Shown: piece after piece, positions 6,255-60,264 of the stretch
How positions within the stretch are numbered: position 1 is the stretch's first letter
How the letters are laid out: every line of letters starts with the position of its first letter
Source of the DNA: Paludibacter sp.
GTDB lineage: Bacteria > Bacteroidota > Bacteroidia > Bacteroidales > Paludibacteraceae
Length of the DNA: 64,000 bases
NCBI GenBank assembly: GCA_028690665.1
Contig: JAQVAV010000013.1
Coordinates: 1-64,000, forward strand
Direction: 5' to 3'
Made by a program: the position numbers and the translations under genes
Notes under the pieces: generated by a model
Databases searched by the model: none
Seen by the model: the letters and a program-made list of their open reading frames with translations, nothing else
Told to the model about the DNA's origin: nothing

Positions 6255-6294
6255 AATCAATTATTTATTAATAGAAAATCAATTATTTGACAAA

Positions 6295-7614
6295 ATGAAA
6301 AAACTTTATTTTTTCTTTCTTACATTATTGGTATTACCGTTGTTTTTTTCGTGCGATCCGAAAGAAGATATTGAAACGCCGGATGGAACTACCGATTCTA
6401 CTGCAACAGACTCAACGAGTAAATACCCTGTTAACGCAATTGTATGGCCTAAAGACACAACAGTTACGCTAACCAATCATTATATCGTGCCTGTTGATTC
6501 TTCGTTGTATATTGAAGAAGGAGCTACGATAATAATGGATGATACGATTGTTCGACCTGAGTTTATTGTGCTCGGAAATCTCTATTGCCATGGAACTAAA
6601 GCAGATCCTATTACATTTACTGTGGCCGAAAAATATAGAAATGAAGCTCATCGTTTTGGCCGGTACTGGGGTGGTATCATTTGTGGATATGAGTCGAAAG
6701 AAGTCTTATTAGACTACGTTACTGTCGAGTATGGAGGTGCTCAAACAACAGAAGAATCTGCATCTTTCCAATATCAGTTATTTAAAACAGAAACAGGCGA
6801 AGGAGTTCCGGGATTTCATTTTTGTAATACCGAAGGGAAATTTGTGATAGAAAATTGTACGTTCCGTAACAATGCAGAAGATCAGATTTATATTACAGGA
6901 GGACAATCTATTATAGCTAACAATAAGGTTATAGCTAACGGATATGATGGAGGTGATGCGATCAACTATAAATCAGGATGTTTGGCCGATGTGTGTTATA
7001 ATGTAATATATGATGCAAATTCAAACGGGCTGAAATTATCTAATAATGGAGCATTTGACCCACAGACACATATTTTCTGTTACAACAATACTTTGGTCAA
7101 TTGTGGCTGGCGTCGTCCGAAGGTTAAAGGTGGCTCTATTTGGTTAGAAATGAATGTTTATGCCGAACTTTATAATAATTTGATGTTCGATTGTCGCTGG
7201 GCATGTAAACAGGATATTTCCGATCCTCAGGATTCGCGTTCTGTGATTACTCCTAATTATTATTTTGCTTCAACCGAAACCGGAGTTACACAATATCAGG
7301 GTGATGAATCAAAAGGTCAGTTGGTAGGTGCAAGTGATATAGTAAGTGCCTCTGCCGGAGATAAAAATCCGAATTTTGTAAACTTTACAATTCAGAATAA
7401 TGTTGATGTTAACGCTGGCTCAACTAAAAGTGGAAATGTCCCTCAAACATTCAGCAGTAGTTGGGATTTTCATTTGTCAGCAGGCTCTCCGGCTCTTACA
7501 GGTGGCACAACTAATTTTACCCGCCATTTTGGAACAAGCGGACTAACTATTGATGGTGTTGAATATAAATCACCCGATCCGGCTGTTTATTTTGGAGCAT
7601 ACGGAACAAATTAA
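6295..7614 (+). CDS. Right-handed parallel beta-helix surface lipoprotein
   Basis: Probable outer-membrane lipoprotein of 439 residues. I chose the ATG at 6295 because it gives a basic n-region, a hydrophobic stretch and a lipobox ending LFFSC; an earlier in-frame ATG at 6214 overlaps the receptor gene and would bury this signal. After a Thr/Asp/Ser-rich linker the protein has repeated short strands with Asn ladders and phrases such as VIENCTFRNN and AELYNN, typical of right-handed beta-helices seen in polysaccharide-binding or -cleaving proteins. It starts 40 bases after the TonB receptor and is probably co-transcribed. No catalytic residues are recognised. It may be a surface ligand-binding partner of the receptor. 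Confidence 0.75.
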   Translation: MKKLYFFFLTLLVLPLFFSCDPKEDIETPDGTTDSTATDSTSKYPVNAIVWPKDTTVTLTNHYIVPVDSSLYIEEGATIIMDDTIVRPEFIVLGNLYCHGTKADPITFTVAEKYRNEAHRFGRYWGGIICGYESKEVLLDYVTVEYGGAQTTEESASFQYQLFKTETGEGVPGFHFCNTEGKFVIENCTFRNNAEDQIYITGGQSIIANNKVIANGYDGGDAINYKSGCLADVCYNVIYDANSNGLKLSNNGAFDPQTHIFCYNNTLVNCGWRRPKVKGGSIWLEMNVYAELYNNLMFDCRWACKQDISDPQDSRSVITPNYYFASTETGVTQYQGDESKGQLVGASDIVSASAGDKNPNFVNFTIQNNVDVNAGSTKSGNVPQTFSSSWDFHLSAGSPALTGGTTNFTRHFGTSGLTIDGVEYKSPDPAVYFGAYGTN

Positions 7615-29500: not shown

Positions 29501-30584
29501 CTTTACTTCCAATCCAAAGTGTATTCTGATTGTCAAGAAATAATGCTCTGACGGGTCTTTCAATTTTATTAATCAGATTATTGAGTACGTTTGATCTGAT
29601 TGAATAGGCGGTGTTTGAAAAAATATATACTCCTTTTCCATCAGTTCCAATCCAGACAATATCCTGTAGTTTATCTCTTTTTAAACAAAAAATTCCGCTA
29701 TTTACTTCTATTTCTTTTTTGAGGTAGGTGTCCTCTTGTTTTTCCAGAAGGAGCAATCCATTTGTTAAGAATCCGATAAAATAATTATCATGATGTCTTA
29801 TAATAGCAGAAACTTTGCCTCTTTTCAGAATTTCGTCTTTCAGATTGTAAATATATGTTTTTTTATAGGATACTACATTGTAGGAGAACAGGTCGTAGTC
29901 TGTATCAATATAGTATATAGTATCATCGTCGTCGTAAAAGCAATTAATGATTTTTTTAGAAAAGTTGAGCTTATTTTTTACCGGAATAAGAGATAGTTCG
30001 TCGTTCTTATTTACAATTTTATAGGTCAGATTGTAACCTTTGTTGGTAATAATCCACAAAATATCATGGCTGTCAATAAAAAATTTTTCAATGTCAGAAA
30101 AAATTATGCCTGAAGTTAGAAGTTTCTTGAATCCGGAATTTCCTTTCTGATAGTAAAAAATACTGTTGCTTTCACTAATAATAAAAAGATTGTTGGATTT
30201 ATCTTTTTCGATAAAAAATAATTTTTGGAACTCATTAAAATGAGTAACGGTATTTGTGCCGGCATTAAATTTATTTAAGCCATAATAAGTCTGAATCCAA
30301 AAAGTATTGTCGCCTGTGTAAACTATCTTATCTATAATATTGCCCGACAAGAAGGTGTTTTTATTATCGGGTTGAAAGGCCTCAACATCTCTGCTGTTGT
30401 AAATATTTAAGCCATCGCAGGTACCTATGAATACAACACCTTTGTCATCTTGACAAAAGTCTGTTATAGAACTGTTTGATAGATTATAATTGTTGGTAAT
30501 CTGTTTTAAATTATAGGCAAATGAATTTACCCCCGAGATGACAAGGCACACAAAAGGTAAAAGGATTTTAGTGATGTTTTTCAT
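26523..30584 (-). CDS. Hybrid two-component system regulator (HTCS) of the mannan locus
   Basis: One-polypeptide sensor and transcription factor typical of Bacteroidota glycan loci. The 1353 residues run in order: signal peptide; two periplasmic beta-propellers made of repeated WIGS/WIGT-x-x-G-L blades (about 25-680); a Y_Y_Y domain (about 690-760); one membrane segment (about 775-798); a histidine kinase with His836 in NIAHEFCTPL and ATP-binding boxes NLISNAFKYTP and GLGLAIS; a receiver domain (about 1094-1205) with phospho-acceptor Asp1142; and an AraC-type DNA-binding domain (about 1250-1345). It is divergent from the GH92 gene with 226 bases between, so it most likely senses a mannan oligosaccharide and activates that cluster. 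Confidence 0.93.
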   Translation of the reverse strand: MKNITKILLPFVCLVISGVNSFAYNLKQITNNYNLSNSSITDFCQDDKGVVFIGTCDGLNIYNSRDVEAFQPDNKNTFLSGNIIDKIVYTGDNTFWIQTYYGLNKFNAGTNTVTHFNEFQKLFFIEKDKSNNLFIISESNSIFYYQKGNSGFKKLLTSGIIFSDIEKFFIDSHDILWIITNKGYNLTYKIVNKNDELSLIPVKNKLNFSKKIINCFYDDDDTIYYIDTDYDLFSYNVVSYKKTYIYNLKDEILKRGKVSAIIRHHDNYFIGFLTNGLLLLEKQEDTYLKKEIEVNSGIFCLKRDKLQDIVWIGTDGKGVYIFSNTAYSIRSNVLNNLINKIERPVRALFLDNQNTLWIGSKGDGILKVYDYNVNKSIHDCRIEAISTKNSQLSDNIIYAFRKSNRNILWIGSEEGLNFYSYKTKQIKQVKINIKGLDYRYIHDIYETADSKLWLASVGLGIVCADITDSDDNPTLTNIRHYTINNGDFESNYFFSIYAETDSSIWFANRGYGPFHFNNKNENLDPVNFYNKYSNQTINDVFVINKDDSGNMLFGTGYGLIKYTNPEEHKIFNSYTGFLNNSIHAIVKEDNNTFWLSTNKGIVQFNSKREGFRIFDKIDGLKVTEFSDGASFRDNQSGTIFFGGVNGFVSIQKDRGTEQTYMPGIYFDKLTIFGEHHNISENINNYRGSSRLELKYKQNFFAVSFTAIDYINGGNYTYYYKIDGLSDQWINNGTANVASFTNISPGNYTLLVKYYNRTLEKESPVYSLKIKIFPPWYLSGWAYLIYILISISIIIMVIRYYIQKQKRRKQELVNELEKKHQKEVFESKLRFFTNIAHEFCTPLTLISGPCERILAQQGITKFVANYVQMIQTNAERLNGLIQELIEFRRIETGNRELVIEELNISDMLEKILAMFSNMAESKQIGIEFSPEQTIKWNSDKGFLTTIITNLISNAFKYTPNNKKIRVTLSVSDNYLAIAIANQGNAIKKIDSKRVFDRYTILDNFENQENNQTFSRNGLGLAISYNMVKLLNGSIEISTTCDDFVLFTVKLPFIKMDAKTVHQDQTIQTTRTYIPEIIQHKTIKLPKYDFNKLKPTMLIVDDDIEILWLIGEIFSDEFNIIPLNDPLELDSILNDVFPNIIISDIMMNGMNGVELTQKIKSRAETDHIPVILISGKYEIEQQIEALEAGAEMYINKPFNTKYLKISVQQIIERKEKLKNYFSSPISSYEMAEGKLTHTEHKKFLQSVLNIINENITNKDLSTQFIADQLGIGSRSLYRKMQEVGDESLASLIKECRLHLATDLLLKTKMTIDEVVYKSGFSNKVTFFKAFHKKYNCTPKEFRTKNEADITSTYNN

Positions 30585-30810: not shown

Positions 30811-33090
30811 ATGAAGAACTCATTTTATTCTTGGCTACTTTTATCTTTTTGTATAGTTTCTTTCCATTTGTCAGCTGCAACTGACCCTGTTGATTATGTG
30901 AATATACTTGTTGGGACGCAATCAAAATTTGAATTGTCAACAGGGAATACTTATCCTGCAGTAGCTCTTCCCTGGGGGATGAATTTTTGGTCTCCTCAAA
31001 CAGGCAATATGGGAGATGGCTGGATGTATGTGTATACTGCGGATAAAATAAAAGGATTTAAACAAACTCATCAGCCAAGTCCGTGGATGAATGATTACGG
31101 ACAGTTTTCAATTATGCCCGTAACAGATAAGCCTGTATTTGATCAGGATAAACGGGCGAGTTGGTTTTCGCATAAGGCTGAAATTGCAAAACCATATTAC
31201 TATAGTGTGTATTTGGCCGATCATGATGTTACTACAGAAATAGCTCCTACCGAACGTGCAGCCATGTTTCGTTTTACTTTTCCGGAGAATGATCATTCTT
31301 ATGTTGTGTTGGATGCCTTTGACCACGGATCTTTCGTACAAATTATACCGAATGAAAATAAAATTATTGGTTACACAACAAAGAATAGCGGCGGTGTCCC
31401 TGATAATTTTAAAAACTATTTTGTCATCGTTTTTGACAAGCCGTTTACTTATGAAGCTGTTGTTGGAGATAACGAAATCAGAAAAAATGAATTGGAAGCC
31501 AAAGAAAATCATACCGGTGCTATTATTGGTTTCTCAACTCAAAAAGGAGAACAGGTCTGTGCGCGTGTAGCATCTTCTTTTATTAGTCCGGAACAGGCGG
31601 AACTGAATCTGAAAGAGTTGAAAAACGATTCTTTTGATAAAGTTGTGGCAGAAGGAAGAAAAAAATGGAATGATGTTTTGGGCCGGATTGAGGTTAAAGA
31701 TAACAATATTGATAATCTCCGTACTTTTTATTCTTCGCTTTATCGCTCCGTGTTGTTTCCCCGTGCTTTTTACGAAATTGATAAAAGTGGAAAAGCAATG
31801 CACTACAGTCCGTATAATGGAAAAGTTTTGCCCGGATACATGTTTACTGATACCGGATTTTGGGATACATTCCGAAGTTTGTTCCCGTTTTTAAATTTAA
31901 TGTACCCTTCCATGAATGTAAAAATGCAGGAAGGTTTGGTCAATGCCTATAAAGAGAGCGGTTTTTTGCCGGAATGGGCAAGTCCGGGACACCGAAATAT
32001 AATGATTGGAAATAATTCTGCATCAATTGTAGCCGATGCTTATCTTAAAGGGTTGAGAGGTTATGATATAGAAACACTTTGGGAGGCGCTGAAACATGAT
32101 GCCAATAATGTGCATCCGACCGTCCCTGCATCCGGAAGAGCTGCTTATCAGCAATATAACAATTTGGGATATATTCCTAATAATATAGGAATAGGACAAA
32201 ATGTTGCTCGCACGTTAGAATATGCTTATGATGACTGGACTATATATCAGTTGGGGAAAGCCCTTAAAAAACCGGCATCAGAAATAGATATTTATGCCAA
32301 GAGAGCTATGAATTACAAAAATGTTTATGATCCGGAGCGTAAATTAATGGTTGGACGGGCCGATAATGGAACCTTTGATAAAAATTTTGTACCAGAAGAC
32401 TGGAGTGGTGAGTTTTGTGAGGGAAATAGCTGGCACTGGAGCTTTTGCGTGTTTCATGATCCACAAGGTTTGATAAATCTTATGGGAGGAGATAAAGGGT
32501 TCAACCAAATGATGGACTCGGTATTTATTGTTCCCGGAGCAAAAGGAATGAAAAGTCGTGGCGTGATTCATGAAATGCGCGAAATGCAGGTTATGAACAT
32601 GGGGCAATATGCACACGGTAATCAACCGATTCAGCACATGGTTTATCTTTATAATTATTCCCGAGAACCATGGAAATGTCAGTATTGGGTACGTCAGATT
32701 ATGGATAAACTTTATAAGGCAACCCCGGACGGATACTGTGGAGATGAAGATAACGGACAAACATCAAGCTGGTATGTACTTTCTGCCTTGGGATTTTATA
32801 CCGTTTGTCCTGGAACTGACCAATATATTATTGGTTCTCCGCTGTTCAGTTCCGTAAAACTTCATTTGGAAAATGGAAAAACCGTTTCAATTACAGCTGA
32901 AAATAATAGTACGAAAAATTATTATGTAAATTCACTGAGAGTAAACGGGAAAAAATATGATATAAATTACTTTACACACGAGCAATTAATAAAAGGACCG
33001 AATATCCAGTTTGGAATGTCCGGTGCTCCGAATAAATACAGAGGAATAAGTGATGCGGCTCGTCCTTATTCTTTTACAAATGATAAATAG
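30811..33090 (+). CDS. GH92 alpha-mannosidase, first copy
   Basis: Calcium-dependent exo-alpha-mannosidase, probably periplasmic; signal peptide ends near residue 23. GH92 hallmarks: N-terminal beta domain with LVGTQ and ALPWGMNFWSPQ, the presumed catalytic acid Glu537 in CEGNSWHW, GNQP at 603-606, and the base region GDEDNGQTSSW with Asp645 and Asp647. Length 759 residues is typical. First gene of the mannan run, facing the HTCS regulator. It differs from the second copy in having GNQP rather than GNEP, suggesting a different subgroup and linkage preference, which I cannot assign. Confidence 0.94.
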   Translation: MKNSFYSWLLLSFCIVSFHLSAATDPVDYVNILVGTQSKFELSTGNTYPAVALPWGMNFWSPQTGNMGDGWMYVYTADKIKGFKQTHQPSPWMNDYGQFSIMPVTDKPVFDQDKRASWFSHKAEIAKPYYYSVYLADHDVTTEIAPTERAAMFRFTFPENDHSYVVLDAFDHGSFVQIIPNENKIIGYTTKNSGGVPDNFKNYFVIVFDKPFTYEAVVGDNEIRKNELEAKENHTGAIIGFSTQKGEQVCARVASSFISPEQAELNLKELKNDSFDKVVAEGRKKWNDVLGRIEVKDNNIDNLRTFYSSLYRSVLFPRAFYEIDKSGKAMHYSPYNGKVLPGYMFTDTGFWDTFRSLFPFLNLMYPSMNVKMQEGLVNAYKESGFLPEWASPGHRNIMIGNNSASIVADAYLKGLRGYDIETLWEALKHDANNVHPTVPASGRAAYQQYNNLGYIPNNIGIGQNVARTLEYAYDDWTIYQLGKALKKPASEIDIYAKRAMNYKNVYDPERKLMVGRADNGTFDKNFVPEDWSGEFCEGNSWHWSFCVFHDPQGLINLMGGDKGFNQMMDSVFIVPGAKGMKSRGVIHEMREMQVMNMGQYAHGNQPIQHMVYLYNYSREPWKCQYWVRQIMDKLYKATPDGYCGDEDNGQTSSWYVLSALGFYTVCPGTDQYIIGSPLFSSVKLHLENGKTVSITAENNSTKNYYVNSLRVNGKKYDINYFTHEQLIKGPNIQFGMSGAPNKYRGISDAARPYSFTNDK

Positions 33091-33118
33091 GTTTTGGGTA
33101 TAAAAGGGTTGTTAACAG

Positions 33119-33160
33119 ATGGGAGGGGATGAATAATCGTACTCCCATTTTTAAATTTTT
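33119..33160 (+). promoter_or_regulatory. Hairpin between the first two GH92 genes
   Basis: ATGGGAG (33119-33125) pairs with CTCCCAT (33142-33148) across a 16-base loop and is followed by a T/A-rich run. It may be a weak terminator or an mRNA-processing or stabilising hairpin inside the operon. It overlaps an alternative upstream start of the next gene, favouring the later start. Confidence 0.45.
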
Positions 33161-33164
33161 TATT

Positions 33165-35414
33165 ATGAATTTCAGCAAATATGTATTTTTAATTTTAGTC
33201 GGTGTTGTATCTATAAATACTAATGCCGGTACTGCAAAAAAATTATCCCGGGAAGTTGATCCTTATATTGGAACAGGTGGACACGGACATACTTTTTTAG
33301 GAGCTACAACTCCCTTTGGCGCAGTTCAGATTGGGCCAAATAATATAAACAAAGGTTGGGACTGGTGTTCCGGATATCATTATTCCGATTCTATTGTAGT
33401 TGGATTCTCTCATTTACATTTAAGTGGAACCGGTTGTACCGATACCGGAGATTTAATGTTTATGCCGTACACAGGCAAATTGCAGACGGCTCCCGGAGGG
33501 CAGGATAATCCTGATGCCGGATATGCATCCCGTTATTCCCATAAAAACGAAAAAGTTGGTGTCGGGTATTATTCTTTGTTTTTAGATGATTACGGTGTAG
33601 AAGTAGAATTAACTGCAACAAAAAGAGTTGCTTTTCACCATTATACATTCCCGGTAGAAAAAGAGCAGAAACAAGTGATGATTAACTTGAAAGACGCTAA
33701 TGGAGATAGAGCTACTGATACTTTTATGGAACAAGTGGATGAATACACTATCAGAGGTTATCGGTTTTCAGCAGGATGGACACCTAGTCAACAAATTTAT
33801 TTTACAGCAGTTTTTTCGGTTCCAGTAAAATTAGTTCTTTACAATCACGATAGGAAAGTAAGTGGTACCAAATATAGATCAACAGGAGTTAAAGCTAATG
33901 CCTGTTTGCCTGACGATGTAACCACCGTTGATGTGAAAGTAGGAATTTCTCCTGTAAGTACAGAAAATGCCTTAAAGAATATTCAGTCCGAGTTAAACCA
34001 TTGGAATTTTAAGAAGGTGGTCGCTGAGGCCAATTCCGCATGGAATGAAGAATTGAGTAAAGTCTCTGTCAAAACAAAAGATAAAACCGCTAAAACCATT
34101 TTTTATACTGCACTTTATCACGCGTTTATTCAGCCCAATACTTTTAATGATGTAAATAACGACTATCGTGGTAGTGATAAGAAAGTGTATCGAAATGGGG
34201 ATTTTACCAATTATACAGTATTTTCATTGTGGGATACTTATAGAGCAGCCCATCCTTTATACACGATTTTAGAACCCGAACGTGTACCGGATTTTATAAA
34301 TTCGATGCTTGCCATTTATGATCAACAGGGATTATTGCCTGTATGGCATCTGTATGGCAGCGATACGCATGAGATGATTGGAATTCAGTCGATTCCGGTT
34401 ATTGCCGATGCTATTCTCAAAGGCTTTAAAGGTTTCGATTATGAACGTGCATTTAACGCAATGAAAGCATCTATGTTGAGTGATTATAAAAGTCTTTCAT
34501 ATCTTAAAACCAATAAATACATTCCTTCTGATAAAGAAGGAGAATCTGTTGCTAAAGGGTTGGAATATGCTATTGCTGATTGGGGAATAGCTCAGGTTGC
34601 CCAAAAACTTGGTAAAATGGATGATTATAAATTATTCTCTGAACGCGCCTCTTATTATAAACTTTACTGGGATTCTAAAACCCATTTTTTCAGGGGCAAA
34701 AACATGGATGGTAGTTTCTCAACTCCATTCGATCCTGTTCGCTCAACACATCGTAACGATGATTATTGTGAAGGCAATGCATGGCAATATACCTGGCTTG
34801 TGCCAGAAGATGTTGAAGGCCTTATAGGTTTATTTGGTTCAGAGTCAGCTTTTGTCAATAAATTAGATAGTCTGTTCCATTTGGATCAATCTCTCGGAGA
34901 TAATGCTTCCCCGGATATTTCCGGCCTGATCGGTCAATATGCACATGGAAACGAACCGGGGCATCACACGATTTATTTGTATGCGTTTGCTGGGCAGCAG
35001 TGGAAAACTGCCGAAATGGCTCGTCAGGTATTAAAAACCATGTATTTTAATAAACCAAATGGGTTGGCAGGAAATGAAGATTGTGGACAGATGTCATCAT
35101 GGTATGTTTTTTCTGCACTGGGTTTCTATCCGGTAAATCCTTCGAACGGAGTGTATGTGTTTGGAAGTCCGTTGTTCGATGAAGCTAAAATTAGTTTGCC
35201 CGGGGGGAAAACCTTTAAAATTATTACGAAAAATAATTCGGATAAAAATATTTATATCCAGTCGGTGAAATTAAATGGAAAAGATTATCCATATAGTTAC
35301 ATAAAGCATACGGACATCATGAAAGGTGGTAAATTGGAATTTGTTATGGGAGAAAAACCCAATAAAGAGTTTGGAAAGGAACCGGAATATCGTCCAAAAT
35401 CAATTATAAAATAA
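33165..35414 (+). CDS. GH92 alpha-mannosidase, second copy
   Basis: Exo-alpha-mannosidase of GH92, 749 residues from ATG 33165, which gives a signal peptide (MNFSKYVFLILVG). An ATG at 33129 would add 12 residues and lie in the hairpin. Hallmarks: DPYIGTGGHGHTFLGATTPFGAVQ, Glu536 in CEGNAWQYTW as presumed catalytic acid, GNEP at 595-598, and GNEDCGQMSSW with Asp639. This is the more canonical GH92 type. It lies between the first GH92 and the GH38 gene, 36 bases before the latter, consistent with one operon. Confidence 0.95.
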   Translation: MNFSKYVFLILVGVVSINTNAGTAKKLSREVDPYIGTGGHGHTFLGATTPFGAVQIGPNNINKGWDWCSGYHYSDSIVVGFSHLHLSGTGCTDTGDLMFMPYTGKLQTAPGGQDNPDAGYASRYSHKNEKVGVGYYSLFLDDYGVEVELTATKRVAFHHYTFPVEKEQKQVMINLKDANGDRATDTFMEQVDEYTIRGYRFSAGWTPSQQIYFTAVFSVPVKLVLYNHDRKVSGTKYRSTGVKANACLPDDVTTVDVKVGISPVSTENALKNIQSELNHWNFKKVVAEANSAWNEELSKVSVKTKDKTAKTIFYTALYHAFIQPNTFNDVNNDYRGSDKKVYRNGDFTNYTVFSLWDTYRAAHPLYTILEPERVPDFINSMLAIYDQQGLLPVWHLYGSDTHEMIGIQSIPVIADAILKGFKGFDYERAFNAMKASMLSDYKSLSYLKTNKYIPSDKEGESVAKGLEYAIADWGIAQVAQKLGKMDDYKLFSERASYYKLYWDSKTHFFRGKNMDGSFSTPFDPVRSTHRNDDYCEGNAWQYTWLVPEDVEGLIGLFGSESAFVNKLDSLFHLDQSLGDNASPDISGLIGQYAHGNEPGHHTIYLYAFAGQQWKTAEMARQVLKTMYFNKPNGLAGNEDCGQMSSWYVFSALGFYPVNPSNGVYVFGSPLFDEAKISLPGGKTFKIITKNNSDKNIYIQSVKLNGKDYPYSYIKHTDIMKGGKLEFVMGEKPNKEFGKEPEYRPKSIIK

Positions 35415-35450
35415 TGAATTAATGATCTGATAAACATATTTTTAGTATAT

Positions 35451-38400
35451 ATGAAAAGGTTAATATTGTCGTTGTTGTCAACAGTATTTTGTGTTATGTC
35501 TTTTACACAAAACTCTCCAGAGAAAGAAAAAGCTTATATCGTGTCGGATGCCCATTTTGATTCGCAGTGGAATTGGGATGTGCAGCGTTCTATTAGTGAA
35601 TTCATCCCGAAAACGATGAACCAGAATCTTATGTTGTTGCAAAAGTATCCGGATTACATTTTTAATTTCGAAGGAGGAATAAAATATGCCTGGATGAAAG
35701 AGTATTTTCCTTTGGAGTATGAGTTGGTGAAAAAATACATTAAAGAAGGTCGTTGGCATGTCGCCGGAAGTACCTGGGATGCTACTGATACGAATATACC
35801 TTCCCCCGAATCTTTTACCAGAAATATACTATATGGCCAGATGTTTTATGAGGATGAGTTTGGGGTAAAAGGAACAGATATATTTCTTCCCGATTGCTTT
35901 GGGTTTAGCTGGATTTTACCTTCCATTGCAGCCCACTCCGGTTTGATCGGATTTTCTACCCAGAAATTAATGTGGAGACATAAACCCTTTTATGCAAGTG
36001 GTAAAACCCCTTTTGAAATTGGATTATGGCAGGGGATTGATAGTTCAAAAATAATGTTGGTAGCTGATGCACATAATTATACTACCAAATGGAGAGATGA
36101 AGATTTATCAGAAAGTAAATACCTTGAAGATATAATTAAAAAGAGTCCGATCAAAACAGTATATCACTATTACGGTACCGGTGATACAGGAGGCGCGCCT
36201 ACTATCGAATCTGTCAGAGCTGTAGAACAAGGGGTAAAGGGGGATGGCCCTGTCAAAATAATCAGTGCCACAAGCGACCAACTCTATAAAGATTATTTGC
36301 CGTTTGATAAACATCCGGAACTTCCTGTTTTCAATGGTGAGTTGTTGATGGATGTACATGGAACGGGATGTTATACCTCTCAGGCGGCTATGAAACTGTT
36401 CAACCGTAAAAACGAATTGTTGGCCGATGCCGCAGAACGGTCAGCTGTTGTTGCCGACTGGTTGGGAGCTTTATCTTATCCCAAACATACTTTGGCGGAA
36501 GCATGGAAAAGAATTATATGGCATCAATTCCACGATGACCTTACAGGCACAAGTATTCCGCGCGCTTACGAATTTTCGTGGAATGACGAACTGATTTCAT
36601 TGAAACAATTTGAAGATGTTATGACCAGCTCTGTTGGCGCAGCATCACGCTTTTTGGATACAAAGGTAAAAGGAAGTCCGGTTGTAATTTATAATCCGAT
36701 GTCGATGCCCGTATCTGAAATTGTAGAAATAACCATACCTGAAAATCGAAAATCAGATGAGTATGCAGTGTATGATGATCAAGGAAAAATGGTTCCTGCT
36801 CAAAAAATATCTTCTGCTGATGGAAAAGTAAAATTGCTCGTTGCTGCTCATCTGCCATCTTGTGGTTATGTCGTTTATGATGTTAGAAAAGGAAGCTCTA
36901 AAGTAAATAAATTGCTGTCGGCAAAAGTTGATAAGAACGAAATTGAAAATAGTGTATACCGGGTTACTGTTGATAAGAACGGAGATATTTCTTCTATTTA
37001 CGATAAGAAAAATCAGCGCGAGTTGGTAGAAGCCGGAAAAGCTGTTCGCTTGGCATTATTTCCTGAAAATGAATCATTCCATTGGCCAGCCTGGGAAATT
37101 ATGAAAATGGAAATTGATAAAGAACCTGTAGCAATTTCCGAAAATGTAAAAATATCTATGGCGGAGAGTGGTCCGCTAAGATCTGCATTATGTGTTGAAC
37201 GCACTTATGGTGACTCGAAATTTAAGCAATATATACGTTTGAACGAAGGAGGACAGGCTGACCGGATAGATATTGTAAACGAAGTAAACTGGCAAACTAC
37301 GAATGCTCTGTTAAAAGCGGAGTTCCCCCTTACAGTCTCAAATCCGCAGGCTACTTATGATCTGGGGCTGGGAACTGTGAAACGTGGAAATAATACTGAT
37401 ATTGCTTATGAAGTGTATGCTCAATATTGGGCTGATCTTACAGCTAGAGACAATTCGTATGGAGTGGCAGTAATGAATGACTGTAAATACGGCTGGGATA
37501 AACCGAATGATAATACTTTGCGACTGACCTTGTTGCATACGCCTAAAACTCTTGGTGGATACACATATCAATCACAGCAGGATTTTGGAAAACATTATTT
37601 TACATACTCTATAGTTGGTCATACGGGTGATTATAATCAGGCTGGTATTGTTGAAAAAGCTGAACTTTTGAATCAATCTCCAAAGACTTTTATTGTCGAC
37701 AAACATCAGGGACCTTTGGGCCGGAATTTCTCATTTGTCAGAAATGACAATAATCATGTTTTGATCAAAGCGTTTAAACAGGCTGAAAAATCGGATGAAT
37801 ATATCATACGTTTATATGAAACTACCGGAAAGTCTAATCAGTCAGTTACTCTGACTTTTCCGGCGGAGGTTCTTTCTGCCAAAGAAGATAACGGAATTGA
37901 AGAAGATTTGGCCGATGTAAATTTCTCCGGAAAGGATGTGAAATTTGAAATAAAACCATACGGTATAAAAACATTAAAAATAAAGTTGTCCGGGTTGAAT
38001 CTGAATGTGCCGGTTTCGCAATCGGAAACTGTTGAATTGCCTTATGATACTAAGGCCGCAACATACAACGCGTTCAGAAGTGATGCGAATTTAGATGGGA
38101 AAGGAAATTCTTATGCGGCAGAAATTTTCCCGGAAGAAGTTGATTATAAAGGGGTGAAATTTCAATTAAAAGGAGCAGATGTTGCCAATGTAGTGAAATG
38201 TCGCAATCAGGTAATTCGTCTTCCGCAGGGGAATTATAATAAGCTGTATCTGTTGGTTGCTTCTACCGGAAAAGATGTAAAAGTTCCTATTGAAGTTGAC
38301 AATGTAAAAAAAGAAGTGGTAGTGTCCGGATATTCTGGATTTATCGGGCAATGGGGCCATATCGGACACACTCAGGGCTTCCTGAAACCAGCCAATGTCG

Positions 38401-39062
38401 CATTTGTAGGCACGCATAAGCACAATATGTTATACAATAAAGATGTCCCGTATGAGTATACCTATATGTTTGCAGTAACAATAGATATTCCGGCACATGC
38501 AAAGCAATTGATTTTACCCGATAATTCAAAAGTAATGATTTTTGCTGCAACCATAGTAAATGATTTAAATAATACAATTCAACCAGCTCAGGATCTTTTG
38601 AAAGTGAATTTGCCACAAAACGTGGATTTATCCGAAATGCAATACGGTAAGAATTTACTTTTTGGGAAGTCAGTTATCCGCAAATCCGGAGAGGTGAATG
38701 CTCTTGAAAAAGCTGAATTTGCAACCGATGAAGATTCTAATACGAAATGGTGTGACACAAGCATGAATAAACCCAAATTCATAGAAATTGATTTGGAAAA
38801 AGTTGAAGATATCCATGGTTGGTCGGTATTCCATGCAGGATTAGAAAATTTGGATTATATAACCAAAGAGTACAGTTTGCAGGCAAAACAAAATGTAGAT
38901 GATGAGTGGCAAACGATCGATGCTGTATTTGATAATACCCAAGTAGAGACAGATCGGTTGTTAAGTCGGCCGGTAAAAGCACGATTTATTCGTCTAAATA
39001 TAACAAAACCTGACCAAAGTGAGGGCGAAGTTTCGCGTATTTATGATTTTCAGGTTTACTGA
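35451..39062 (+). CDS. GH38 alpha-mannosidase with C-terminal F5/8C module
   Basis: Zinc-dependent retaining alpha-mannosidase. A short signal peptide precedes the GH38 core. His35 and Asp37 (AHFDSQW), Asp148 in LPDCFGF and His361-Asp362 in QFHDDLTGTS match the zinc ligands and nucleophile of the family, with Asp148 as the likely nucleophile. A large beta-rich C-terminal part follows. The last about 150 residues (from the LLFGKSVIRKSG region) form a discoidin-type carbohydrate-binding module. The 1203 residues are long for bacterial GH38, and the extra length is this module. Co-directional with the GH92 genes. Confidence 0.93.
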   Translation: MKRLILSLLSTVFCVMSFTQNSPEKEKAYIVSDAHFDSQWNWDVQRSISEFIPKTMNQNLMLLQKYPDYIFNFEGGIKYAWMKEYFPLEYELVKKYIKEGRWHVAGSTWDATDTNIPSPESFTRNILYGQMFYEDEFGVKGTDIFLPDCFGFSWILPSIAAHSGLIGFSTQKLMWRHKPFYASGKTPFEIGLWQGIDSSKIMLVADAHNYTTKWRDEDLSESKYLEDIIKKSPIKTVYHYYGTGDTGGAPTIESVRAVEQGVKGDGPVKIISATSDQLYKDYLPFDKHPELPVFNGELLMDVHGTGCYTSQAAMKLFNRKNELLADAAERSAVVADWLGALSYPKHTLAEAWKRIIWHQFHDDLTGTSIPRAYEFSWNDELISLKQFEDVMTSSVGAASRFLDTKVKGSPVVIYNPMSMPVSEIVEITIPENRKSDEYAVYDDQGKMVPAQKISSADGKVKLLVAAHLPSCGYVVYDVRKGSSKVNKLLSAKVDKNEIENSVYRVTVDKNGDISSIYDKKNQRELVEAGKAVRLALFPENESFHWPAWEIMKMEIDKEPVAISENVKISMAESGPLRSALCVERTYGDSKFKQYIRLNEGGQADRIDIVNEVNWQTTNALLKAEFPLTVSNPQATYDLGLGTVKRGNNTDIAYEVYAQYWADLTARDNSYGVAVMNDCKYGWDKPNDNTLRLTLLHTPKTLGGYTYQSQQDFGKHYFTYSIVGHTGDYNQAGIVEKAELLNQSPKTFIVDKHQGPLGRNFSFVRNDNNHVLIKAFKQAEKSDEYIIRLYETTGKSNQSVTLTFPAEVLSAKEDNGIEEDLADVNFSGKDVKFEIKPYGIKTLKIKLSGLNLNVPVSQSETVELPYDTKAATYNAFRSDANLDGKGNSYAAEIFPEEVDYKGVKFQLKGADVANVVKCRNQVIRLPQGNYNKLYLLVASTGKDVKVPIEVDNVKKEVVVSGYSGFIGQWGHIGHTQGFLKPANVAFVGTHKHNMLYNKDVPYEYTYMFAVTIDIPAHAKQLILPDNSKVMIFAATIVNDLNNTIQPAQDLLKVNLPQNVDLSEMQYGKNLLFGKSVIRKSGEVNALEKAEFATDEDSNTKWCDTSMNKPKFIEIDLEKVEDIHGWSVFHAGLENLDYITKEYSLQAKQNVDDEWQTIDAVFDNTQVETDRLLSRPVKARFIRLNITKPDQSEGEVSRIYDFQVY

Positions 39063-39087
39063 TAAGTGTTGTAACACAGAATAAAGT

Positions 39088-39095
39088 TATCTTTG
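39088..39095 (+). promoter_or_regulatory. -7 promoter element for GH76-GH125
   Basis: TATCTTTG fits TAnnTTTG, with TTG at 39069-39071 about 16 bases upstream. It lies 86 bases before the GH76 start and suggests a separate transcription start for the GH76-GH125 pair. Confidence 0.5.
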
Positions 39096-39181
39096 TATAA
39101 AACACCATTTACGTAAAGCTAAAAAAATTAAAATAACAGAGTCGCGTTATAAATTTATGCAGACTGTTATATGCGGTATTT

Positions 39182-40381
39182 ATGAATAAAATAAGATTTA
39201 TTAAAAGTTTTTTTGTAGCTATTCTTTTTTCATTTTTGTGTTTTTTTCCAAAGGATCTTTTTGCAAAAGAGGATAGCAACTTAAAACGATCAGAAATTAC
39301 AATAGATGCAATATATCGACATTATGGAATAAAAGGGAGTTCGTTGTTGCGGGAAACGTATCCGTATGATGAATCGAATAAAGTGACTTATCTGGCAGAT
39401 ACGGATCAGGCCCAGAAAAAGAATTTCTGTTCTTACCTTTGGCCATATTCGGGAAGTCTGACAGCAGTAAGCCTGCTGCTAGAGACCACCGGAAAATGTA
39501 AGTACAAAAGACTACTTACAAAGAAAGTGATACGGGGTCTGGAGCAGTATTATGACATATCCCGGACTCCGGCAGCCTATGCTTCATATATTAAAACAAG
39601 TGCTTCTGATCGTTTTTATGACGACAATATCTGGATTGGTATAGATTTTACTGATTTGTATTTATCGACAGGAACAAAAAAATATTTAGAAAAGGCCCGG
39701 ACTCTCTGGAAGTTTATAGAGAGTGGAACTGATGCGGTTTTGGGTGGAGGTGTTTATTGGTGTGAACAAAAAAAAGGCGGGAAGAACACCTGTTCCAATG
39801 CCCCGGCAGCCGTTTATGCCTTCAAACTGTTTGAAGCCACAAAAGACAGCAGTTATTTTTATCAGGGATTAGGCCTGTATAACTGGACAAAGAATCATTT
39901 GCAGGATCCTGAAGACGGATTATATTATGACAATATCAATCAGACAGGAAGAATTGATAAAGCCAAATATGCATATAACAGTGGGCAAATGCTCCAGGCA
40001 GCAGCATTGCTGTATAAACTGACCGGGGAAAAAACTTATTTGGAAGAAGCAGAGCAAATTGCCCAATCGGCATATCATCGTTTCTTTCATGAAACAAAAG
40101 ACAGTCAGGGAAATGCATTGCGGTTGTTGAATAAAGGCAATATCTGGTTTTCGGCTGTTATGTTTCGTGGGTATATCGAACTATATGAACAAACAAAATC
40201 AGCCGTTTATATCAAAACTTTTCAGCAGAATATGAATTATGCATGGGAGCACATGCGAGATGAGAATGGATTGTTCAATACAGATTGGAGTGGAAAAGAA
40301 AAAGATACTTCCAAATGGTTGTTAACACAGTTTGCCATGGTAGAAATGTATACCCGCCTGAGTCGTTTAGAGGTTAACTGA
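39182..40381 (+). CDS. GH76 endo-alpha-1,6-mannanase
   Basis: Predicted endo-acting enzyme on the alpha-1,6-mannan backbone of fungal cell-wall mannan. The signal peptide ends near residue 29 (LFAKE). The catalytic Asp pair of GH76 is seen as Asp147-Asp148 in FYDDNIW. The blocks GGGVYWCEQ and CSNAPAAVYAFKLFE are typical of the alpha/alpha barrel of this family. At 399 residues it is a single-domain enzyme, unlike the multimodular GH76 further on. GH125 follows 20 bases later, and the two are a natural endo/exo pair. Confidence 0.93.
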   Translation: MNKIRFIKSFFVAILFSFLCFFPKDLFAKEDSNLKRSEITIDAIYRHYGIKGSSLLRETYPYDESNKVTYLADTDQAQKKNFCSYLWPYSGSLTAVSLLLETTGKCKYKRLLTKKVIRGLEQYYDISRTPAAYASYIKTSASDRFYDDNIWIGIDFTDLYLSTGTKKYLEKARTLWKFIESGTDAVLGGGVYWCEQKKGGKNTCSNAPAAVYAFKLFEATKDSSYFYQGLGLYNWTKNHLQDPEDGLYYDNINQTGRIDKAKYAYNSGQMLQAAALLYKLTGEKTYLEEAEQIAQSAYHRFFHETKDSQGNALRLLNKGNIWFSAVMFRGYIELYEQTKSAVYIKTFQQNMNYAWEHMRDENGLFNTDWSGKEKDTSKWLLTQFAMVEMYTRLSRLEVN

Positions 40382-40401
40382 TTAATCGAGAATAATAAAA
40401 A

Positions 40402-41865
40402 ATGAAGAAAGACTTAAAAAGAATTGGATTATTGGTGGGTTGCAGCCTGCTTGTGTCTGCTATGACATATTCGGAGGTAACAATGCATACGGCCCCCCTG
40501 TCAAAAGACAAAACGAATGTATACGTGTCGGAACGTCCGGCTAAAAAAGATCGTTTGTTTGAATCACAGGCCGTTGAGCGTAAAATCAGAGAAATCACCA
40601 ATTTGCTTTCAAATGCCAAACTTCGCTGGATGTTTCAGAACTGTTTTCCCAATACCATTGACACAACAGTTAGGTACTATAATGAAGATGGAGACGATGA
40701 CACGGTAGTTTACACGGGCGATATTCATGCCATGTGGCTGCGTGACTCCGGTGCACAGGTGTGGCCTTACCTTCAACTGGCCAATAGTGATCCGGCTTTG
40801 AAGAAAATGATTCGCGGTACCGTGCTTCGCCAGCTTAAATGTATAGAAATAGACCCGTATGCGAATGCCTTTCTGGATCCTCACGATCCGAATCCGGACC
40901 ATAATTGGATGAGTGATATAACCAAGATGAAACCTCAGTTGCATGAACGCAAATGGGAAATAGATTCTCTTTGTTATGTAATTCGGTTAGCTTATGAATA
41001 TTGGGTTGTAACAGGCGATGCTTCTGTTTTTGGGAAAGACTGGGAGAAAGCCATGGCTTTAGTACTTCAAACATTTAAAGAGCAACAGCGCAAAAACGGC
41101 CCCGGTCCATATTCTTTCCAACGAAAAACAGAACGCCAGTTAGATACCATGTCGAATAACGGTCTGGGAAATCCGGTCAATCCGGTAGGGCTGATCGCCT
41201 CAGCTTTTCGTCCGTCGGATGATGCCACGACTTTCCTTTTTTTGATTCCTTCGAATCTATTTGCTGTAACTTCGTTGAGAAAATCAGCCAAGATACTGAC
41301 AGAAGTCAATAAAAACGAAGCCATGGCTAATGAATGCTTGTCCTTAGCCAATGAAGTAGAAGAAGCCATAAAGAAATACGCCACGTTCAATCATCCGAAG
41401 TACGGTACCATTTACGCTTATGAAGTAGATGGTTTTGGCAATAAGCTGTTGATGGATGATGCCAATGTTCCAAGTTTACTGGCATTACCTTATCTGGGAG
41501 ATGTTGATGTCAACGATCCTATTTACCAGAATACCCGGAAGTTTGTATGGAGCAAGGATAACCCTTATTTCTTCAAAGGCAAGGCAGGGGAAGGTATTGG
41601 TGGCCCACATATCGGTTATGATATGGTTTGGCCCATGAGTATTATGATGAAGGCTTTCACCAGTGAGGATGATGAAGAAATCAAAGAATGTATCGAAATG
41701 TTGATGAACACTGATGCCGGTACAGGCTTTATGCATGAGTCCTTCAATAAGGATGATCCCACGAATTTTACCCGCAAATGGTTTGCTTGGCAGAATACGC
41801 TTTTCGGAGAACTAATTATTAAACTGGTGGACGATGGTAAATTGGATTTGTTGAATAGTATATAA
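40402..41865 (+). CDS. GH125 exo-alpha-1,6-mannosidase
   Basis: Removes terminal alpha-1,6-linked mannose from oligosaccharides released by GH76. The family signature GDIHAMWLRDSGAQVWPYL is present (Asp115), as are RPSDDATTF (Asp273-Asp274) and EGIGGPHIGYDMVWP, where Glu397 is a good candidate for the catalytic base by position. Length 487 residues is usual. It has an N-terminal hydrophobic stretch, so a periplasmic location is likely. A perfect terminator follows, closing this transcription unit. Confidence 0.94.
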   Translation: MKKDLKRIGLLVGCSLLVSAMTYSEVTMHTAPLSKDKTNVYVSERPAKKDRLFESQAVERKIREITNLLSNAKLRWMFQNCFPNTIDTTVRYYNEDGDDDTVVYTGDIHAMWLRDSGAQVWPYLQLANSDPALKKMIRGTVLRQLKCIEIDPYANAFLDPHDPNPDHNWMSDITKMKPQLHERKWEIDSLCYVIRLAYEYWVVTGDASVFGKDWEKAMALVLQTFKEQQRKNGPGPYSFQRKTERQLDTMSNNGLGNPVNPVGLIASAFRPSDDATTFLFLIPSNLFAVTSLRKSAKILTEVNKNEAMANECLSLANEVEEAIKKYATFNHPKYGTIYAYEVDGFGNKLLMDDANVPSLLALPYLGDVDVNDPIYQNTRKFVWSKDNPYFFKGKAGEGIGGPHIGYDMVWPMSIMMKAFTSEDDEEIKECIEMLMNTDAGTGFMHESFNKDDPTNFTRKWFAWQNTLFGELIIKLVDDGKLDLLNSI

Positions 41866-56274: not shown

Positions 56275-56465
56275 AGATGACAAATATCTTTCATTTTAAA
56301 TATAGTATTTTATAGGTTTATTGTTGAAGTCTGATGTGATTATGACGGAATTTATAAAAAAAACGATTAGTAAATAATTTGCATGGAATGTTTGTCCTTT
56401 AAATGTGTTGGCATGTTCAAAAGACAACATCCAAACCATGGTTCCACTCTCAATAAAAACTTAAT

Positions 56466-56489
56466 ATGAAATTAAAACCATTTTATTTA
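56466..56489 (+). pseudogene. Detached original start of the interrupted downstream gene
   Basis: ATG at 56466 opens eight codons (MKLKPFYL) that stop being sensible at the IS630 left end. If the element and one TA copy are removed, this reading frame joins exactly in frame to the PLLLFTVF codons after 57601 and gives a normal signal peptide with a basic n-region. It is the original 5' end of the gene now starting at 57587. Confidence 0.85.
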
Positions 56490-56504
56490 AGTAAGTAATC
56501 AAAA

Positions 56505-57520
56505 TTAAGCGACATAATGCGAGTAATTAATGAACAGTGTATTTCCAATCGCCGCCAACGCTCTGTTGGTTGCGTAGAAAAGCATGTCTGTACTCACATA
56601 GTCTTGAGGTCTGATCCATTTTCCTTTCAATATCCTCCAAAGTGTTTCCGCAATATTCAGGTGCGGAGAATATGGAGGCAGATAGAAAAGAAAAAGCCCT
56701 CTTTTTTCCCATACCAGACGCAACTCCCGTATTTTATTATTACGATGAACCGTAGCATTGTCAAGCACCACAAAGGTGTTTTTGCGCACACGCAAGGAAA
56801 ATGCATCGAGGAAATTCACGACCTTGTCGGCGTTGATACTTTCGGTGGTGGCGAATCCCTGATATTGGTTCTTTCTGTCAATCATTCCGAAGATGTTGAG
56901 CCTTGCGCTTCTTTGAGATACAATGCACACATCCTCACCGGGCAACTGCCAGCCGTAAGGAACATATCCTTCGGTACAGATATGGCTTTCATCAGCATAA
57001 TACAAGGCAATGCGCCCTTCACGTTCCTGTTGTTCAAGTTCTTGCAACTTTTCGTATTTGTACTCGTAAAGTTGCGGCGAGGGGACTCCCCTTGGGCGTT
57101 TTCTTATTCGCTTATATCTTGCGCCAAGGCGGATAAAAAACGCTTGAAGGTCAAGTCGCTTGCCTCTTTGCCTGTTGCCTGTTGCCAAGCCGTTTTAGCT
57201 TTGCTTACACTTTGCCTGTCCTGTTCGATGGCTGAACGCACTGCTTGTTCGTCCGAACAATCCATTATTGGTTTTCGACCACGACCTTCACGGGTTTGTA
57301 AGCCTGTTATGCCTTCCGAAAGGAAACGTTTTACCCATGCATTAACTGACACCAAACTCATTTCGGTCTGTTCACCCGCTTTTACAGAAGGTAGTCCATC
57401 TAACTTGAGAAGAACAGCACGACAACGCATGCGAAAACAGTGGCTCGTGCCATGGCGGAAACCATGCTCTAATTCTAATCGTTGGACGCTCGTTAATTCT
57501 ATCGTCTTTATTTTTCCCAT
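56505..57520 (-). CDS. IS630 family transposase, made by -1 frameshift
   Basis: DDE transposase encoded in two overlapping frames; the joined product is about 338 residues. The first part has a helix-turn-helix domain. The second carries the DDE residues: D in YADESH, D in VVLDNATVH and E in NIAETLWR. Frame change is expected at a T-TTT-TTA heptamer (57140-57134, minus), which is exactly in register as a -1 slippery site: codons CGT TTT TTA in the first frame, continuing as FIRLGARYKR in the second. No stop interrupts either part, so the element may be active. Confidence 0.9.
57104..57520 (-). CDS. IS630 first-frame product (DNA-binding part)
   Basis: Without frameshifting, translation from 57520 gives a 138-residue protein with the helix-turn-helix half only, ending 10 codons past the slippery site. 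In other insertion sequences such short products bind the ends and repress transposition; that role here is by analogy. Confidence 0.75.
   Translation of the reverse strand: MGKIKTIELTSVQRLELEHGFRHGTSHCFRMRCRAVLLKLDGLPSVKAGEQTEMSLVSVNAWVKRFLSEGITGLQTREGRGRKPIMDCSDEQAVRSAIEQDRQSVSKAKTAWQQATGKEASDLTFKRFLSALAQDISE
57134..57140 (-). other. Programmed -1 frameshift site
   Basis: The minus strand reads T-TTT-TTA in the zero frame, an ideal -1 heptamer. A GGGG/CCCC hairpin lies about 42 bases downstream (57080-57092), probably too far to act as the stimulator. Confidence 0.8.
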
Positions 57521-57586
57521 TGCTAATCGTATTTTATTGAATACTGATAGAACGGAATCTATTATTGAATATTGTATAAACTAAAT

Positions 57587-58894
57587 ATGAACACTTACTT
57601 ACCTCTTTTATTATTTACTGTTTTTATAAGTAATATCTCTATTAGTCATGCTCAGACTACCCCAACCATAGAGACAATAAAAGAGAAATTAAGCTCTGAA
57701 TATTTCGAGAAGTTATATTCAAAAACATACTTTAGTCTTTTAGACAGGCTGGATTCCAAAGGTTATTTACCCGAGTCGCTAACTGGGGCATATTCAGGAA
57801 TGTTCCCTCGTACCACAGGGCCATACGTTTTTTTGCTTATAGAAACAGGAAGATATCAGAAAGCTGAACTTACACTAAAATATTTATTGGAAACACTTGA
57901 AAAAAACAATTTGGAACGTATTCCCCGTGTGATAGGAGGCACTTTCAATATTGAAGATGACCAATTCCAAATTGACGGACAAGCACATGTTATATTGGCT
58001 TGGGCACGATTGGCATTAAAAAGAGGACATACTCAATTTGAAGATGATACATGGGAACAAGTAAGAGCATTAATGAAATTTACTACAAGCCGTGCATTTT
58101 TTCTTCATGGACATTGGTATGGACACTGGTCAATTGAACCGGGATTAGTGCGTAATACTGCCATTGAACACTCCAAAGAATCACGAATGTGGGATGCCTT
58201 CGATCTCCTTACACAAAGTTTTGTTGGTGCTGCTTTAACAGATATGGTGACAATAGCAGAAAAACATCAGGATAAAAAAATGGTGAAACTTTGGAGTAAT
58301 CAGCTTGATTTATTGAAAGATGGCTTAGACACAAATTTGACCACAACTTATTATGGTATAAAAACATATCTGGAAATGTTATTGCCAAATGGAGATACGG
58401 GTGTTTCATATCCGGGTTTAGGTTGGGTAACACTTTCGCCTGTTGCAGCTGGCTGGGAAGGTTTGGATCATAGCATTATGCAAAATACAGTAAAAATAAT
58501 GCATGAAAAGTTGCTAAAACAAAGCAACGGAGTAGTATGGATGCCTACTGATGGATATCCTGATGGAACATTTTCAAATGAAATTATAGGGAAAGGAATT
58601 GCCTGGGAAATCGCTTTTGCGAACTCCGAAAATGATTTCAATCGTTTGGATGAAATATTGAATTTGATAAAAACTGTGAATGCGGACAACCCTATTTATA
58701 TGGAGGGTGCATGGTTAGATGGTGATGGATATTTTCAAAATAAACGATTGGTGAATTCTGATATTAACCAAATGACAGATTGTGTGTGGAAAGTAAAGGA
58801 TGCCGGTAATGGCGAACAAACGGCATGGTGGTGCTGGGCAATAGCTCGTTTGCGAAAGTCAGTAGGTTTATCCGCCGAGCCGAAAAGAATGTAA
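57587..58894 (+). CDS. Putative alpha/alpha-barrel glycosidase, 5' end rebuilt by IS630
   Basis: Exported protein of 435 residues that I cannot assign to a family. It has regular helical repeats and blocks such as GAYSGMFPRTTGPYVFLL, DDQFQIDGQAHVILAWARLA, SIEPGLVRNT, ESRMWDAFDLLTQ, GWVTLSPVAAGWEG and WMPTDGYPDGTF that suggest a six-hairpin fold with acidic active-site residues (Asp124-Asp125 region). The first codons (ATG at 57587 to 57599) belong to the insertion sequence; the rest, from PLLLF on, is the original gene. A signal peptide remains (cut near SHAQ). Its native promoter is now over 1 kb away, so expression may be altered. A close paralogue follows. Confidence 0.6.
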   Translation: MNTYLPLLLFTVFISNISISHAQTTPTIETIKEKLSSEYFEKLYSKTYFSLLDRLDSKGYLPESLTGAYSGMFPRTTGPYVFLLIETGRYQKAELTLKYLLETLEKNNLERIPRVIGGTFNIEDDQFQIDGQAHVILAWARLALKRGHTQFEDDTWEQVRALMKFTTSRAFFLHGHWYGHWSIEPGLVRNTAIEHSKESRMWDAFDLLTQSFVGAALTDMVTIAEKHQDKKMVKLWSNQLDLLKDGLDTNLTTTYYGIKTYLEMLLPNGDTGVSYPGLGWVTLSPVAAGWEGLDHSIMQNTVKIMHEKLLKQSNGVVWMPTDGYPDGTFSNEIIGKGIAWEIAFANSENDFNRLDEILNLIKTVNADNPIYMEGAWLDGDGYFQNKRLVNSDINQMTDCVWKVKDAGNGEQTAWWCWAIARLRKSVGLSAEPKRM

Positions 58895-58918: not shown

Positions 58919-60264
58919 ATGAGGTTCAAATTATATTTAATGTCTTGTGTGTTGTCTTTGTTTACATTACAACTGACAATAGCTTCAGATAAACCACAAT
59001 CAGTTATAAAAGAAGATATAACACGGTTTCTTACGGAAGACCTTGAGCAGTTATATTCTGTTACTTACTCCAAATTAATAAGTAGAATGGACTCATCCGG
59101 ATATTTGCCGGAATCATTGACCGGTGCCTACAAAGGGATGTATCCACGTACAGTTGGTGCATATGCATTATTGATGATAGAAACCGAACGCTATTCTAAA
59201 GCAGAAATCGCTCTGAAATATATACTTGATGCAATGAAAGATAATGAAGAGATATTTGTGCCACACGTAGTAGGAAACGAAGGAAATGACAACGGTGGAC
59301 GGGCAAATATTATTGATGATCAATACCAAAGCGATGCACATGCTCATGTCATATTGGGGTGGGCGCGGCTTGCTTCTGCAAGAGGGATTACTCAATTTGA
59401 AAGAGATACATGGCCACAAGTAAAAGCGTTGATGAATCGTTTGGCAGATAGAACCCTTTTCCAATATGGTAGCTGGTCTATTGAGCCGGGATTATTAAGA
59501 GCAGTTACATTTGAGCATTCGCGCGATGGACGAATGTGGGATGCTTATGATTTGCTTACTCAGAGTCTTTTTGGTGCGGCATTGTCAGAAATGGCTAAGA
59601 TAGCCGATACGATGGGCGAAATAGCACTTGCTTCAACCTGGAGAGAAAAGGAGCGAATTTTGAGCGAAGGTATAAACAAGAATCTGGTAGTAGAACGAGA
59701 TGGACAGCAGACTTATGCCGAAATGTTCATTCCGAATGGAAATGGCGGTACACCTTATATGGGCATGGGTTGGGTTTGTTTTTCGCCGGTTGCAGCCGGT
59801 TGGGAGGGTGTTGACCACAGTGTGTTAAGAAATACAATGGGCTCATGGAAAAAAACTATCTGCAAACAACTGACGGAATACGTTGGATGCCGACAGATGT
59901 ATATTCTGATGGAGTTTTTGTAGATGAAGTAATCGGAAAAGGTATCGGTTGGGAATTGGATTATGCACGATCTGAAGAAAATTACGATAGAATATATGAA
60001 ATTCTCCAACTGATAAAGGCTGCCAATATCGGTAAGTCTATTTATATGGAATTTGCATGGCTGGAAGGAAATGGATTTACCCGAAATAGTAAAATAACAA
60101 AGAGTGCTGTTGATAGTAAAATGCAAGGAACAACACAATGGACATCAAGAGATGTTGGTAATGGTGAACAAAACACATGGTTTTGTTGGGCAATGGCGCG
60201 TTTACGAAAATCAGTAGGGTTATCAGCAGAACCCGAAAAAATACAAAATACAAATAATGAATAA
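58919..60264 (+). pseudogene. Paralogue of the upstream alpha/alpha-barrel gene, frameshifted at an A7 run
   Basis: Clearly the same family as the preceding gene, sharing PESLTGAY, GMYPRTVGAY, DDQYQSDAHAHVILGWARLA, WSIEPGLLRA, GRMWDAYDLLTQS, FSPVAAGWEG and RKSVGLSAEP. The first frame runs to a stop at 59923 and the true C-terminal part lies in another frame (59845-60264). Adding one base to the A7 run at 59849-59855 joins the two and aligns with the neighbour with no gap over the junction, giving about 448 residues. It is therefore a one-base loss, a sequencing error, or a slippage-controlled gene. The signal peptide is intact. Confidence 0.8.

Follow-up and report, generated by a model that had tools for sequence, protein, structure and literature searches.

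An IS630-family insertion in a signal-peptide codon of a predicted glycosidase gene supplies a new in-frame start, probably by accident

What becomes of a gene when an insertion sequence (IS) severs its start codon and the end of that element can itself be read as the beginning of the same protein? An IS found close to the start of a gene tends to be taken as a knock-out or a promoter swap, and an IS481 insertion reportedly alters the expression of a Bordetella gene (PMC3053399). The window analysed here, a 64,000-nucleotide stretch from a Paludibacter sp. genome of 4.05 Mb in 29 contigs, offers a different arrangement: an IS630-family element splits codon 8 (Leu) of a predicted secreted glycosidase gene and presents an outward ATG in frame with the remainder. 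The question is whether the gene is dead, was left readable by accident or is served by a device built into the element.

The element is complete and 1,110 bp long (56490–57599, transposase on the minus strand), flanked by one TA target copy on the left (56488–56489) and another on the right (57600–57601). Its terminal inverted repeats, AGTAAGTAATCA at the left end (56490–56501) and AGTAAGTGTTCA, as reverse complement, at the right (57588–57599), are alike at 10 of 12 positions; short repeats of this sort are a trait of the IS630 family, which is Tc1/mariner-like and targets TA. These borders are corroborated by another full-length copy of 1,110 bp at a different site in the genome (C18), 96% identical across 1,122 bp, with the same ends as the window copy and TA–TA flanks of its own. 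A duplicated TA also flanks the relative in genome G006 (83% identity across 1,114 bp). Three further partial matches occur in the source genome, two of the three at contig ends. The span 56466–57620 given for the insertion in the earlier note begins at the old ATG and ends a little way into the gene, and so does not follow the borders of the IS.

Searches of the ORF list with Pfam and NCBIfam profiles divide the transposase into two minus-strand frames: ORFA, the HTH part (57104–57520, 138 aa), and ORFB, the DDE part (56505–57188, 227 aa), which lies in the −1 frame relative to ORFA. Matches to Pfam DDE_3 (E 6.5e-30, 104.3 bits) and NCBIfam transpos_IS630 (E 2.5e-33) identify a DDE transposase of IS630 type; ORFB scores 115.8 bits with the latter against a cut-off of 100, and ORFA alone stays under it at 44.4 bits. 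TTTTTTA (57134–57140, minus strand) is a candidate −1 slippery heptamer, judged from the sequence, whose phase would fit a −1 frameshift fusion of ORFA and ORFB, as in some IS630 members. Frameshift decoding is stated for the IS630 family in the matched part of a published account (PMC5009743). With these profile matches and the second complete copy, the IS and its borders are certainly more than chance.

To the left of the element the gene reads ATG AAA TTA AAA CCA TTT TAT T, followed by TA, and to the right, past the second TA, it resumes with CCT CTT TTA TTA TTT. Joined through a single TA, the flanks give MKLKPFYLPLLLFTVFISNISISHAQTTP..., stop-free throughout the joined stretch, and the reading, MKLKPFYLPLLLFTVFISNISISHAQ, is open and signal-peptide-like. 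The claim from which we started, that an IS630 had inserted in the Leu codon after MKLKPFY, is confirmed to the base by borders, TA copies and joined flanks, and so is its corollary that removal of the element and one TA brings the two halves into frame with an open N-terminus of signal-peptide type. With the IS in place, the old start (56466–56498, plus strand) yields MKLKPFYLSK before a stop inside the element (TAA 56496–56498).

At the other border the last 13 bases of the IS are ATG AAC ACT TAC T, which with the adjoining TA continue in frame as MNTYLPLLLF..., just as had been claimed. This ATG, at 57587, is contained entirely in the element, whose border is reached after 13 nt (ATG counted); it consists of base 57587 and the beginning of the right terminal repeat, and derives from that repeat (TTCA plus one T, other strand). 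From it the interrupted gene can be read for 435 aa (57587–58894, plus strand), with no lesion downstream of the insertion; the ORF, its homologues and a structural model together predict a secreted glycosidase with an (α/α)6-type fold. In the ORF list a TTG within the element (57572–57574, plus strand) is also in frame and could serve as start instead, reading MYKLNMNTYLPLLLF.

The anatomy of the insertion is there to be read in the bases, and from it we infer how the gene may be translated and where its transcripts may come from. The reading that we favour, and hold to be fairly likely, is an accidental rescue of the glycosidase gene by an IS-supplied start, as opposed to a built-in expression device. 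An IS630-family element would have transposed into a TA within codon 8, and the phase of insertion would by chance have matched the remaining gene to the frame of the ATG at the right end of the IS. Because the target is TA, the codon after ATG AAC ACT TAC T always completes to TTA (Leu), and because the phase was in frame, the hydrophobic core, the cleavage region and the mature part of the protein were all preserved. Translation could start at 57587 (or at the TTG at 57572), mainly on transcripts that would come in across the left border or begin within the element and continue into the gene. The insertion itself was probably ordinary in origin. A plain knock-out, in which the insertion separates the gene from promoter and start codon while the in-frame ATG is coincidental and yields no product, seems to us rather unlikely; the 435-aa frame, undamaged after the insertion, argues against it, an argument that says little if the insertion is recent. 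Several observations given below would nonetheless suit a knock-out, and we mark them as they arise.

The protein that would be rescued belongs to a family with full-length members elsewhere. Seven homologues cover the 435-aa product from residue 5–35 to residue 433–435, at 50–70% identity in the alignment, and those closest to the interrupted gene come from Bacteroides and Dysgonomonas. The homologues (L010–L016) are from Bacteroidota plus two metagenome bins labelled Acidobacteria and Terracidiphilus, and the family is poorly named. The window protein has no sequence match in Pfam (E ≤ 0.001), NCBIfam (E ≤ 0.1) or the PDB (E ≤ 1); two of nine aligned family members match Pfam MGH1-like_GH weakly (best E 0.00025), and GH125 is not among the six families listed. 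An AlphaFold2 model (pLDDT 86, pTM 0.87) is confident except for residues 1–22 and two short loops, with a GH125 α-mannosidase as its best Foldseek match (3qt9; E 2.3e-8, TM 0.64, r.m.s.d. 6.5, 12% identity). The predicted fold is thus GH125-like, of the type that we take to be (α/α)6 in the Foldseek matches; since GH116, glucoamylase and other enzymes follow closely, the model does not single out GH125.

The earlier note had proposed a comparison with an empty site in related strains. The Bacteroides reticulotermitis homologue (71% identical) begins MKYKQFLFLLL, a short Lys-containing signal peptide near the same place, and its N-terminus, MKYKQFLFLLLPLIWFSQPLHSQ, resembles the start restored by joining the flanks. 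An empty allele from the same species was not found by a protein search of 60 genomes, the source genome included, or by a scan of genome contigs. Among the 60 genomes the sole other match was partial, at 28% (G011), and the contig scan returned seven loci, all of them 52–71% homologues in other genomes and none from a strain of the same species.

The insertion exchanges seven N-terminal residues (MKLKPFY) for four (MNTY). Lysines in the n-region of a signal peptide play a role in export. The n-region has no Lys or Arg when read from the IS-supplied ATG, two when read from the old start and one when read from the TTG at 57572. At least one such residue precedes the core in 14 of 14 signal-like N-termini from the window, a set picked by eye in which one member (311) is probably a membrane anchor and from which ORFs whose start was uncertain (6214, 10638, 33129 and 60271 among them) were left out. 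An in-frame start codon has been kept, as the earlier note held, and the signal peptide that it further describes as usable is a putative one. A lysine-free n-region is among the points that favour a knock-out. For an accidental rescue it means that the protein would probably be made at a lower level and exported less efficiently; expression of the interrupted gene would be reduced but possible.

The surroundings of the gene bear on its fate as well. A tandem paralogue adjoins it (58919–60264, plus strand; from the ORF list and protein search), frame-shifted between 58919–59923 and 59845–60264; the same tandem paralogue is present and intact in B. reticulotermitis (L010). This frameshift may reflect true decay or a mistake in the sequencing. 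With the paralogue frame-shifted, the locus may be decaying, and this too would sit well with a knock-out. Around both genes extends a dense glycosidase locus (30811–62562) that includes a GH92 gene (Pfam, 52513) two genes upstream of the interrupted one, and that is likely an α-mannan or N-glycan utilization locus. Further mannosidase-type genes, presumed from their translations, are spread across 30811–41865, and what we take to be a hybrid two-component regulator (26523–30584) adjoins the locus. Rfam returned no matches in the window at gathering scores.

Relatives of the IS were sought in successively wider groups. Scanning the genus for the transposase gave matches in 18 of 48 genomes (E ≤ 0.001), most at about 30% identity, and scans of the order, class and phylum gave 3 of 393, 1 of 395 and 1 of 395 genomes (limits 1e-50, 1e-40 and 1e-40), own genome included. 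A phage record (MT837356.1, 7 kb, Bacteriophage sp.) carries a partial transposase match at 6123–6384 (64.8% over 39% of ORFB); in viral contigs, 31 stretches matched a pattern and none encodes a relative. The plasmid comparison took in four of ten records found and includes two IS copies, in Phocaeicola vulgatus and Bacteroides uniformis (L065 and L068), with 70–71% identity over 66–72% of ORFB. In these plasmids a TA copy shares its A with the ATG annotated as the start of a two-component regulator gene (L065 2516–2520; L068 2477–2481). Like the window IS, the plasmid IS sits exactly at a start codon; unlike in the window, the native ATG of the gene is retained and it is the opposite end of the element that abuts it. 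The plasmid element is also disrupted, its ORFB being split by about 1 kb of foreign sequence. Both plasmids carry the same helix-turn-helix protein accession, and the two insertions are for that reason probably one shared event. The plasmid case suggests that an element lodged at a start codon in this way can be maintained.

If the element supplied starts as a matter of course, its other ends should tell. Fifteen outward junctions were compared (seven right-type and eight left-type ends), counting ends that match eight patterns already seen, so that others such as the L063 left end are missing, and dropping the L068 junction as identical to that of L065. Five of the seven right-type ends carry the outward ATG (four in the source genome and one in G010), with TTG in its place in G006 and CTC in G404; the left-type ends have TTG in eight of eight. 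A long frame is opened at the right end of the window element only, with 435 codons against 5 to 62 at the other 14 junctions. Systematic supply of starts by the IS is rejected, 14 of 15 outward junctions running into a stop within 62 codons.

Because the frame of the start-like codon at an IS end is fixed, about a third of insertions would be expected to join it to the gene in frame, an expectation that also makes the frame match unsurprising under a knock-out. An ATG common in right ends, together with one long frame in 15, therefore looks like a one-in-three frame accident. On this count the in-frame start at the window junction would be no more than chance, one case would call for no selection, and the single case seen here is probably accidental.

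A readable gene also needs a transcript. Bacteroidota promoters follow the consensus TTTG ... TAnnTTTG, and we scored sites out of 10 against it. To the left of the IS lies a promoter-like site scoring 9/10, TTTG-N18-TAAATGTG (56378–56407, plus strand; one such site seen against 0.32 expected in 215 bp). It is 1.2 kb from the new start, a distance that favours a knock-out, as does the last 160 bp of the IS, where no outward Bacteroidota-type promoter rises above chance (one site at 8/10 against 1.24 expected). Within the element, GTTG-N18-TAGCTTTG scores 9/10 (57174–57203, plus strand; one such site seen against 0.62 expected in the whole IS) and ATTG-N20-TATTATTG, at 57536, scores 8/10.

Such sites could mean that the gene is driven by a promoter of the IS itself, read on the gene's strand, which we consider improbable. 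In the alignment with C18 and G006 those two copies depart from the window in the second box of the 57174 site, only two of the five right ends compared have the 57536 site, and sites of at least 8/10 across the IS number five against 7.75 expected. A scan for sigma-70-type sites, which does not cover Bacteroidota promoters, points both ways, with three plus-strand sites inside the IS but seven sites in 1.5 kb against a mean of 4.0 (sd 2.1). A terminator-like hairpin within the element, in the orientation of the gene (57078–57094, plus strand), is no better than chance, because such sites number two in 1.5 kb against 1.4 expected. Activation of a gene by an adjacent IS is described elsewhere: Bacteroides fragilis strains gain carbapenem resistance when an IS moves in upstream of cfiA, according to the matched part of one report (PMC9138018), and IS5 at fucAO is described, in the matched part of another, as activating the downstream gene through a promoter or hybrid promoter (PMC11894529). 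By analogy with both cases, as far as those parts describe them, an IS beside a gene start would here alter the expression of that gene; unlike in either, the end of the window IS gives the start codon and the first four codons.

One feature of the element could nevertheless make it a device. An ATG-initiated frame of 355 codons runs antisense to the transposase (56517–57584, plus strand; from the ORF list and resampling, that is, at the level of sequence), and its stop, TAA 57582–57584, precedes the new ATG at 57587 by two bases (TAA-N2-ATG). Given this spacing, read-through transcripts could reinitiate there: ribosomes would translate the antisense frame, stop at the TAA and restart at the ATG, and insertions would be non-polar. 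We judge this quite improbable. Between element positions 10 and 1092 the frame meets no stop, a length of 361 codons that both full copies in the source genome share, and it stays open for 356 codons in the G404 element (71–72% identical), whose right end is without an ATG and thus lacks the stop-to-ATG geometry. Synonymous resampling reached at least 355 codons in 1 of 4,000 trials with host codon usage, 2 of 4,000 with the element's own usage and 0 of 4,000 by codon permutation; the frame is one of three and was picked after looking.

ORFB faces the frame and has none of the codons TTA, CTA and TCA among 33 for Leu and Ser, against 9 of 26 in ORFA, which is out of phase with it. Resampling of ORFB gives P 0.001 for the window, 0.004 for C18 and 0.011 for G404. 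These values are not matched by G334 (P 0.42), Runella (0.17) or Hymenobacter (0.34); G404 and G334 are the only relatives that the wider scans added to this test. ORFB has two antisense stops in G334, where it is truncated by a contig end, three in the damaged G006 copy, four in the damaged G068 copy (summed over overlapping pieces), six in each plasmid copy, five in Runella and 12 in Hymenobacter, while seven IS630 loci of remoter kinship carry between 8 and 19. Over ORFA the frame is free of stops in G006, in the pieces from G010 and G068 and in Runella as well, which favours reinitiation, but it has six in both plasmid copies and two in Hymenobacter; taken alone, the ORFA part gives P values of just 0.14 for the window, 0.15 for C18 and 0.08 for G404, with 0.008 for Runella and 0.77 for Hymenobacter.

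Since the antisense frame is broken in G334 and others, we do not accept it as conserved; it is a lead, not a result. That this IS630 lineage keeps an antisense frame open to two bases before an outward ATG, with insertions in one phase of three translationally transparent, strikes us as highly improbable. If true, ribosomes would cross the IS and restart on the host gene, and the host protein would gain a four-codon, IS-encoded N-terminus. In its transpos_IS630 and DDE_3 matches, TA target, short terminal repeats and two frames the window IS shares the features of its family and shows no departure of consequence. Its antisense frame of 355 codons stands out, but is broken in several relatives.

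Among the literature matches listed, seen in part and drawn mostly from outside subscription journals, there is no description of an IS end that gives an in-frame start to a signal peptide. An accidental rescue of this kind, as we read the present case, has a wider bearing. Where an IS terminus contains a start codon whose frame is set by the TA target, as many as one in three insertions near gene starts could become N-terminal replacements. Replacements of this sort would be easy to find in genomes, and would alter the annotation of the interrupted genes.
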